NCBI GenBank assembly: GCA_947426865.1
Contig: CANEFS010000007.1
Location: forward strand, 1-43,572
DNA length: 43,572 nucleotides
Direction: 5' to 3'
Source: an uncultured Coriobacteriaceae bacterium
GTDB taxonomy: Bacteria > Actinomycetota > Coriobacteriia > Coriobacteriales > Atopobiaceae
A model generated the notes under the pieces. It did no database searches and was not told the DNA's origin. It saw nothing but the letters and a program-made list of their open reading frames with translations. A program made the translations under genes and the position numbers. The number at the start of each line of letters is the position of its first letter. Position 1 is the stretch's first letter. Positions 7,848-11,326 of the stretch are shown piece after piece.

Positions 7848-7922
7848 CCTCTCAAAGGCGAACTATCGCTAAAATAGACCCTCGGCAAGATTGAAAATTA
7901 ACCCGGGGCTAGGGAGCAAACT

Positions 7923-9008
7923 TTGGCTTCAATGAAAGATAAAGATTACTACGAGATTCTTGGGGTTTCTCAAACAGCGACCTCGGAAGAAATTCGCCAT
8001 GCCTTTCAAAAGAAGGCGCGGCGGCTCCATCCCGATGTTAACAAAGATGAAGACGCTGAGGCCGAGTTCAAGGAAGTTTCCGAGGCCTACGCCGTTTTAT
8101 CCGACCAAGAAAAGCGTTCGCGCTACGACGCTATGCGTTCCCGAAATCCGTTTGGCGCAGGTGCTGGAGCTTCCGGTTCCCCCTTCGACGACTTTGATTT
8201 TGGCAGCTTTGGAGGCTTTCCCTTTGGTGGCTTCGGCTTTGGCGGCAAGCAAAAGATGGGCGTGCCCGCCTACAATCCCAAGCCCGGCGCTGACGTCGTT
8301 ATCCATCTGACGATTGACGAAAAAACCGCTAAAGAGGGCGGCAAAAAAGCGATCACCTACGAGCGCTTCGTGGAGTGCAATCTTTGCCACGGAAAAGGCT
8401 CTGTCCAAAGCGCAGAAATCAAGGAGTGTCCTACCTGTCACGGAACGGGCCACATCGACGTAGATTTGGGAGTCCTCTTTGGTGGCGAGGGTTTTGGAGC
8501 GTTTCAAGTCCAGTGCCCGGAGTGCGAAGGTTCCGGAAAAGTTATCGCCGACCCCTGTCCTAATTGCAACGGCTCTGGCCGCATTCTTGCAGGTACCGAG
8601 GAGGTTATTGAGATTGGTCCTCGCACGCATGACGGCACAGAAATCCTCGTTCCCTACATGGGAAACGCTGGAACAAACGGGCAGAAGTCCGGGCAGCTTC
8701 GCGTGATTATCGATGTCCCCGCCGAGAAAATCTCGCCGGATGTGAAGTTTGGTTTTGCTTGCATTGGTTTTGCCGTTCCCTTTTTGCTTATCGGTGCTTT
8801 CTTACAGGTTCTAGGGGCCATGCTTCTTTTTGTGATTCTTCCTCTTTTGATGGGCATATCCCTTACTTTTAGAGCAATCGTGAAAAAGCATAATGCCTAC
8901 TGGTGGAGAAATGCAGGAGCGAGTATCTTGGAAGGAGCTACAAACGGTTTTTTTCTAGCCGCTGCCTTGGCGCTTTTGATGAGCTGCACGCAGGGAAGCG
9001 GGAGATAG
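7923..9008 (+). CDS. Membrane-anchored truncated DnaJ
   Basis: This is a DnaJ (Hsp40) co-chaperone with an unusual end. The J domain (about 7-70) has the Hsp70-stimulating HPD at 36-38. A Gly/Phe region (about 75-110) and a complete zinc-binding domain with four CxxCxGxG repeats (about 150-220) follow. Instead of full C-terminal peptide-binding domains, a short remnant leads into hydrophobic segments at about 277-318 and 340-356, so the protein is probably held in the membrane. The TTG start at 7923 is preferred because AGGGAG (7911-7916) lies 6 nt upstream; an ATG at 7932 is the alternative. It lies in tandem with a second DnaJ, and no dnaK or grpE is present here. Confidence 0.85.
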   Translation: MASMKDKDYYEILGVSQTATSEEIRHAFQKKARRLHPDVNKDEDAEAEFKEVSEAYAVLSDQEKRSRYDAMRSRNPFGAGAGASGSPFDDFDFGSFGGFPFGGFGFGGKQKMGVPAYNPKPGADVVIHLTIDEKTAKEGGKKAITYERFVECNLCHGKGSVQSAEIKECPTCHGTGHIDVDLGVLFGGEGFGAFQVQCPECEGSGKVIADPCPNCNGSGRILAGTEEVIEIGPRTHDGTEILVPYMGNAGTNGQKSGQLRVIIDVPAEKISPDVKFGFACIGFAVPFLLIGAFLQVLGAMLLFVILPLLMGISLTFRAIVKKHNAYWWRNAGASILEGATNGFFLAAALALLMSCTQGSGR

Positions 9009-9117
9009 CTCAAAGCGTGCGGGCGTTTAGGAATTTAAGCTTAAGCGCGCCCTAAATGAAAAAGTTTTAAAGAAATTGCGTAAAAGCATCGAGGTTCACT
9101 TTAAGGTTAAAAGATTT

Positions 9118-9855
9118 ATGCAAGAAAAACGTGACTATTACGAGGTTTTAGAGGTTTCTCGCTCTGCTGGTCAGGCAGAAATAAAGAAGGCTTTTCTTAA
9201 GAAAGCACGCCGCATGCACCCGGACGTTTCAAACGATGAGGATGCAGAGAGCAAGTTCAAAGAGCTGAACGAAGCCTACTCAGTTTTATCGGACGAGAGA
9301 AAGCGTGCCAACTACGACCGCTTTGGAACCGCTGAAGGAATGGGCTTTGGCGGGTTTGCTGCTGACGACCTCTTCTCAGGAATGGGCTTTCCCGATATTT
9401 TCTCGGATTTATTTGGAGGAGGCGGCACTTCGTTTCGTCAAAGACGGCGCCGCCCTGCCCCCACGCGCGATGAAGATCTGCGCATTCAAATGAATGTGAG
9501 CATAGCCGAGGCGCTGAAGGGCAAAGCTGAAACGGTCGAAATTCCCCAATACGTCGAGTGCGACGCGTGCAAGGGAACTGGTTCCAAGTCGCAAAAGGCC
9601 CCTCAGGCATGCCCCACGTGTCGAGGTATGGGCCAGGTCCGCGCTCAGACGCACTCTCCCTTTGGCGTGATGGAGGTGCAGACCCCTTGTCCCGAGTGTG
9701 GCGGGGAAGGAACCGTCATAGCAGACCCCTGTGAAAAGTGCGCAGGAGCTGGCATTCTTCAAAAAACCAGAATAATAAAGGTCACGGTCTCAGGCGAAGA
9801 TCTTTCAAAAACAGAGGCCGAATCTGACACTGAACCATCGGCCGAAAGCGCCTAG
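9118..9855 (+). CDS. DnaJ-family protein lacking C-terminal substrate domains
   Basis: This second Hsp40 homologue has about 245 residues against about 375 for full DnaJ. It has a J domain (RDYYEVLEVSR; HPD at 34-36), a Gly/Phe region, part of the first beta-domain, and four zinc repeats (CDACKGTG, CPTCRGMG, CPECGGEG, CEKCAGAG). It ends soon after the zinc domain in an acidic tail, so the second peptide-binding domain and dimerisation region are missing. The ATG at 9118 is chosen because it directly precedes the J domain; an in-frame TTG at 9076 would add 14 unexplained residues. It sits 109 bp downstream of the membrane-type DnaJ, suggesting a paired function. Confidence 0.85.
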   Translation: MQEKRDYYEVLEVSRSAGQAEIKKAFLKKARRMHPDVSNDEDAESKFKELNEAYSVLSDERKRANYDRFGTAEGMGFGGFAADDLFSGMGFPDIFSDLFGGGGTSFRQRRRRPAPTRDEDLRIQMNVSIAEALKGKAETVEIPQYVECDACKGTGSKSQKAPQACPTCRGMGQVRAQTHSPFGVMEVQTPCPECGGEGTVIADPCEKCAGAGILQKTRIIKVTVSGEDLSKTEAESDTEPSAESA

Positions 9856-11280: not shown

Positions 11281-11326
11281 GAACAATCATCTGAGCACTT
11301 GAGAGGCATCGGAAGAAAGTAGCTAC

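Follow-up and report, generated by a model that had tools for sequence, protein, structure and literature searches.

Among the membrane-tethered J-domain proteins of bacteria, DjlA of E. coli and Caulobacter (class C) is presumed to recruit DnaK to the inner membrane; it consists of one N-terminal transmembrane (TM) segment, a TerB-like middle region and a C-terminal J domain, and is not known to carry a zinc domain or a CTD. DjlB and DjlC possess a J domain and a single tail anchor, again with no known zinc domain or CTDI. To our knowledge, the known bacterial membrane J proteins share hardly more with DnaJ than the J domain. Both DjlB and DjlC are tail-anchored members of class C and partners of HscC (PMC8215388). 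In plant ORANGE (DnaJE1) and other thylakoid DnaJ-zinc-finger proteins, TM helices are combined with a zinc domain of the DnaJ type; ORANGE has two predicted TM helices before the zinc domain, lacks a J domain and is thought to be Hsp70-independent (PMC12063368). Lineage-specific DnaJ duplicates with domain loss, DnaJ 2 and DnaJ 2B, have been described in actinobacteria (PMC12799103), the main text of which contains neither "Coriobacteri" nor "membrane".

The window (the whole 43,572-nt stretch of DNA analysed here, from an uncultured member of the Atopobiaceae) encodes a DnaJ paralogue, TMJ, that is predicted to be membrane-tethered and resembles each of these proteins in part. It shares with DnaJ (class A) the order of J domain, G/F region, four-repeat zinc domain and CTDI, and where DnaJ continues into CTDII, a dimerisation domain and a disordered tail, TMJ has three predicted TM helices instead. 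Like DjlA it would be membrane-tethered, although its J domain is N-terminal and its anchor C-terminal; like DjlB and DjlC it combines a J domain with a C-terminal membrane anchor; and like ORANGE it joins a zinc domain to TM helices, the J domain being present in TMJ only. A subset of DnaJ 2/2B has lost the zinc finger and kept the C-terminal domains, whereas TMJ has kept the zinc finger and lost CTDII. CbpA and other class B proteins, in turn, have CTDI and CTDII without a zinc domain, whereas TMJ has four zinc repeats and no CTDII. Profile matches and domain positions thus bear out the remark in the preliminary description of this DNA that the domain order is unlike that of DnaJ, CbpA or DjlA; the DjlA model NF006948 aligned with only 32 J-domain residues (E 0.0085, 15.7 bits against a cut-off of 162). 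Membrane J proteins as such are already known (DjlA, DjlB/DjlC and class C proteins with TM regions), and TMJ adds a new architecture to them. Neither a membrane DnaJ from Coriobacteriales nor a class A-like protein in which CTDII is swapped for a three-TM domain was found described in the open-access literature other than the main survey of J-protein architectures in bacteria (Barriot et al. 2020).

Reading frame and DnaJ-like domains

TMJ occupies a single open frame at 7923-9008 on the forward strand. The TTG start, giving 361 aa, is plausible because AGGGAG lies 6 nt upstream and a MASM opening is found at the equivalent position in many homologues. Residue numbers taken from the AF2 model follow the 358-aa numbering from the ATG at 7932. 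The features are as follows.

7911-7916, +, probable Shine-Dalgarno sequence AGGGAG for the TTG start of TMJ, read from the sequence
7923-9008, +, TMJ, 361 aa from TTG or 358 aa from ATG 7932
7944-8129, +, J domain with HPD intact (PF00226, E 9.1e-26 at these coordinates)
8139-8276, +, G/F-rich linker, disordered in the AF2 model (pLDDT < 50 over residues 71-114)
8286-8375, +, CTDI, first half, strands 122-127 and 137-148 (AF2, 6jzb alignment, PF01556)
8376-8579, +, zinc domain with four CXXCXGXG repeats (PF00684)
8580-8723, +, CTDI, second half, strands 217-228, 237-240 and 256-261 (AF2, 6jzb alignment, PF01556)
8736-8804, +, predicted TM helix 1, residues 269-291 (hydropathy, conservation, AF2)
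8823-8879, +, predicted TM helix 2, residues 298-316 (hydropathy, conservation, AF2)
8871-8921, +, positive loop with the WW(R/K)NA motif (mean net charge +3.0 in 66 homologues)
8922-8984, +, predicted TM helix 3, residues 331-351, the end of AF2 helix 322-353 (hydropathy, conservation, AF2)
8985-8987, +, Cys352 at the far end of TM3 (94% of aligned homologues, and the third family too)
9076-9855, +, adjacent DnaJ, 259 aa, homologous start at ATG 9118, stopping after the zinc domain

The J domain and the zinc domain both score above the Pfam cut-offs in the protein search (PF00226, E 1.6e-24; PF00684, E 4.6e-14), and H33, P34 and D35 are invariant, in agreement with the earlier statement that the J domain, the G/F region and the four zinc repeats are intact. 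Q26 in the J domain is invariant among TMJs as well; in E. coli DnaJ the corresponding residue of the DnaK-binding helix II is Lys, so that the affinity for DnaK may differ.

The same description held that the protein had lost its C-terminal peptide-binding domains, which is true of one part of that region and not of the other. CTDII and the dimerisation domain are indeed absent, the match of the bacterial DnaJ model TIGR02349 being confined to model positions 1-261 of 354 (227.5 bits against a cut-off of 377.2). CTDI, however, is kept, and so are the zinc finger that it carries and one client site out of two. S. pneumoniae DnaJ (6jzb) aligned unbroken by phmmer with TMJ residues 4-265, a stretch that takes in the J domain, the linker and the whole of CTDI together with the zinc domain. 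AF2 places the CTDI strands at 122-148 and 217-261, and Foldseek superposed this part of the model on DnaJA2 and Ydj1. PF01556 (DnaJ_C) reached positions 3-75 of 152 in the TMJ of the window, below cut-off (E 0.012), and was matched in all 20 of the 20 homologues, with a best E of 2.8e-11. As the TIGR02349, 6jzb, PF01556 and AF2 matches extend through CTDI, the loss is confined to CTDII and the dimerisation domain. The zinc domain sits inserted within CTDI, and among class A features the G/F region, the four-repeat zinc domain and the CTDI beta-sandwich are all present.

The predicted membrane domain

In place of CTDII and the dimerisation domain stand about 100 residues with three TM helices, predicted by hydropathy, conservation and AF2. 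Kyte-Doolittle analysis gave hydrophobic segments at residues 272-321 and 335-353 (361-aa numbering), and the AF2 model (12-row alignment, mean pLDDT 69.9, pTM 0.46) contains helices at 269-291, 298-316 and 322-353 (358-aa numbering), the block having a pLDDT of about 78-87. The C-terminus is therefore hydrophobic as originally proposed, with three predicted helices rather than two, and the suggested examination of homologues found the hydrophobic helices there as well. Their conservation across three families indicates that the hydrophobic C-terminus is not a product of chance.

Across 66 sequences, the three TM segments are nearly free of charge and contain no conserved acidic residues, the TM1-TM2 loop has a net charge of 0, and the TM2-TM3 loop, which holds the WWRNA motif, has a mean net charge of +3.0. 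Under the positive-inside rule, a neutral first loop and a positive second loop place the chaperone part in the cytosol and the C-terminus outside, so that the predicted topology is N-in, C-out; membrane insertion is likewise predicted from hydropathy, conservation and the AF2 helices. Several positions are strongly conserved in the same 66 sequences, namely G274 (100%), G279 (98%), P283 (94%), G308 (97%), W324 (100%), W325 (95%), S351 (91%) and C352 (94%), and this conservation exceeds the needs of a plain anchor. The third family likewise has the three hydrophobic segments and the terminal Cys. A lipoprotein site at Cys352 was considered and rejected, the lipobox [LVI][ASTVI][GAS]C being incompatible with the commonest tetrapeptide, MFSC (23 of 66), and with a position -3 that is mostly M or F. 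No Pfam family matched the TM part consistently, DUF6132 coming closest with matches to 2 of 16 members (E 0.0089), so no partner is indicated by it; a PDB profile search returned significant matches to the CTDI half only, and PHROGs matches were confined to the DnaJ part.

Distribution, origin and gene neighbourhood

TMJ had first been presented as one odd protein, yet it proves to be a clade-wide paralogue beside a normal dnaJ. The proposed search of related genomes recovered the same architecture, full-length or nearly so, in 135 of the 140 genomes of Atopobiaceae, the family to which the window belongs, as well as in Coriobacteriaceae and a third family; the remaining five Atopobiaceae are partial drafts (57-91% complete), one with no match and four with weak DnaJ matches only. 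A profile of the TMJ C-terminus, A2, matched 71 Atopobiaceae, 66 Coriobacteriaceae and 2 third-family genomes at E <= 1e-12, the families being named from loci (Kribbibacterium, Parafannyhessea, Atopobium and uncultured Atopobiaceae; Collinsella aerofaciens for Coriobacteriaceae). TMJ was not seen in Eggerthellaceae or other sampled Actinomycetota, where A2 matched the CTDI half only, and the A2 genome searches in sampled Actinomycetota found no homologue of the TM domain without the DnaJ part. Two individual genomes depart from the usual arrangement: G533 of the third family (L156:4909-7335) carries, upstream of a DnaJ of full length, two tandem TMJ copies that differ only close to the N-terminus, and in G003 (L050:4047-5143) TMJ is broken into two overlapping frames by a frameshift or a sequencing error.

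Trees restricted to the columns that the proteins share (J, zinc and CTDI) united all TMJs in one group (SH-aLRT 100) with a long stem, on the Coriobacteriia DnaJ side of the tree (88). TMJ is most likely a duplicate of DnaJ. A joint clade of TMJ and the neighbouring DnaJ had a p-AU of 0.49, and it is thus possible that the two arose by an old tandem duplication.

Throughout the clade the genes run lepA-dus-hemW-TMJ-dnaJ-mtaB-(phoH)-ybeY-dgkA-era, TMJ lying immediately upstream of dnaJ in a conserved pairing, and the named Eggerthellaceae loci read hemW-hrcA-dnaJ-rsmE-mtaB with TMJ absent. In the window, phoH is missing at 11281-11326, relatives having it between mtaB and ybeY (L037:8093-9070); its absence is consistent with genome reduction, the genome measuring 1.04 Mb. 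hrcA was undetected in most Atopobiaceae tested, the genome of the window included. It lies between TMJ and dnaJ in G020 (L048:3346-4479), and an HrcA-like frame has the same position in G012 (L046:3473-4478). From its presence there in a few genomes, TMJ probably entered between hemW and hrcA, most lineages having lost hrcA afterwards. Control of TMJ by CIRCE or HAIR was also considered and set aside, neither element (with up to 3 and 2 mismatches, respectively) being present at the window locus or the Atopobiaceae loci examined; a CIRCE-like repeat does precede hrcA in the named Eggerthellaceae. On another contig of the window genome, dnaK, grpE and a class B dnaJ precede a MerR-type gene interpreted as hspR, and clpB is encoded there as well. 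The dnaK-operon DnaJ at L163:6985-7983 (G000:C3) is zinc-less (class B) and located between grpE and a MerR/HspR-like gene.

The dnaJ adjacent to TMJ (9076-9855) corresponds in position to the full-length dnaJ of the relatives examined (363-457 aa there). Here the zinc domain is followed by an acidic tail, without the second half of CTDI and without CTDII, and 84 nt separate the gene from the next. A search of the window genome (94% complete, reduced) with a relative's full DnaJ did not find the missing C-terminal part, its only C-terminal matches being the class B DnaJ and the CTDI of TMJ. The truncation of this neighbour leaves TMJ as the sole J protein found in the window genome with a zinc domain and a complete CTDI, and within the window the domain loss in the neighbour is more unusual than that in TMJ. 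In Synechocystis, the J domain and G/F region of the main DnaJ are enough for viability and not for heat resistance (PMC7609799), which suggests that such a truncation is tolerable.

Proposed role and alternative readings

The reading we prefer, with a probability of roughly 0.7, is that TMJ is a DnaJ duplicate converted into a membrane-tethered DnaK co-chaperone. The family itself is well supported; a membrane-anchored DnaJ-type protein, as first described, is upheld by the conserved predicted helices that follow the DnaJ part, and the suggested recruitment of DnaK to the membrane remains the natural interpretation of the architecture. The J domain, G/F linker, zinc domain and CTDI would face the cytosol, and the three-helix domain that took the place of CTDII and the dimerisation domain would anchor the protein N-in, C-out, with a short external TM1-TM2 loop, a positive cytosolic TM2-TM3 loop and the conserved Cys where TM3 reaches the outside. 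Clients of class A proteins are bound by both beta-sandwiches with the assistance of the zinc domain (PMC8215388). On the simplest model, CTDI and the zinc domain of TMJ may capture unfolded segments near the inner face of the membrane, candidate clients being secretory precursors or the loops of membrane proteins that are still nascent or have misassembled, and the J domain would then trigger ATP hydrolysis by local DnaK, clamping the captured segments. Both DnaK stimulation and the type of client are presumed from the domain composition; dnaK and grpE are encoded in the window genome. As TMJ is without a dimerisation domain, any avidity would have to be supplied by the membrane domain or by clustering.

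A truncated adjacent dnaJ in a reduced genome makes decay at the TMJ locus plausible, and TMJ might accordingly be a frameshift, an assembly error or a decaying pseudogene of an ordinary dnaJ. The architecture is nevertheless full length in more than 130 genomes, comprising 135 of the 140 Atopobiaceae and members of two further families, so that the frameshift against which a check had been advised is not supported. Moreover, the lost C-terminal part of DnaJ is not encoded beside TMJ, and TMJ is under purifying selection, the median dN/dS among pairs of moderately close homologues being 0.35 for the TM domain and 0.16 for the remainder of the protein. The open frame is a real gene without a frameshift; the chance of the contrary is negligible, and for the family as a whole that explanation is already refuted by its clade-wide full-length architecture and purifying selection.

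The division of labour within the protein could also be the reverse, with the TM domain doing the work, as the sensor, transporter subunit or assembly factor of one complex, and the DnaJ part regulating it by coupling it to DnaK. Class C J proteins that serve only one client provide a model, Caulobacter DjlA controls an efflux pump post-translationally (PMC10754441), and the TM domain of TMJ has conserved residues of its own beyond hydrophobicity (W324, W325, C352, P283 and G308). However, the A2 searches never met this domain apart from the DnaJ part, its TM segments hold no conserved acidic residues, and the parts that bind clients in general, the zinc domain and CTDI, are retained; we consider this arrangement unlikely. 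Still less probable is that TMJ, rather than acting alone, partners or regulates the DnaJ encoded next to it, for instance in a heterodimer holding that DnaJ at the membrane. The tight pairing of the two genes through the clade would suit such a role, but TMJ is without a dimerisation domain, the adjacent DnaJ of the window is without one too, and both genes persist. A more far-reaching form of the co-chaperone reading should also be mentioned, tentative and on balance doubtful, in which TMJ is a dedicated, clade-wide membrane arm of the Hsp70 system and its three-TM domain itself recognises a partner, be it the translocon, an insertase, a protease or unassembled membrane proteins; if true, DnaK of Coriobacteriales would serve as a chaperone for membrane proteins or for export.

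J-domain proteins determine where Hsp70 acts, and TMJ retains much of the client-holding apparatus of DnaJ, placed by prediction at the membrane, in clades that are mostly gut-dwelling, with abundant bacteria of the human gut (Collinsella) and of the rumen among them. The window genome offers in addition a natural truncation experiment for dnaJ beside TMJ, and the family as a whole represents a testable case of a general chaperone becoming membrane-localised.
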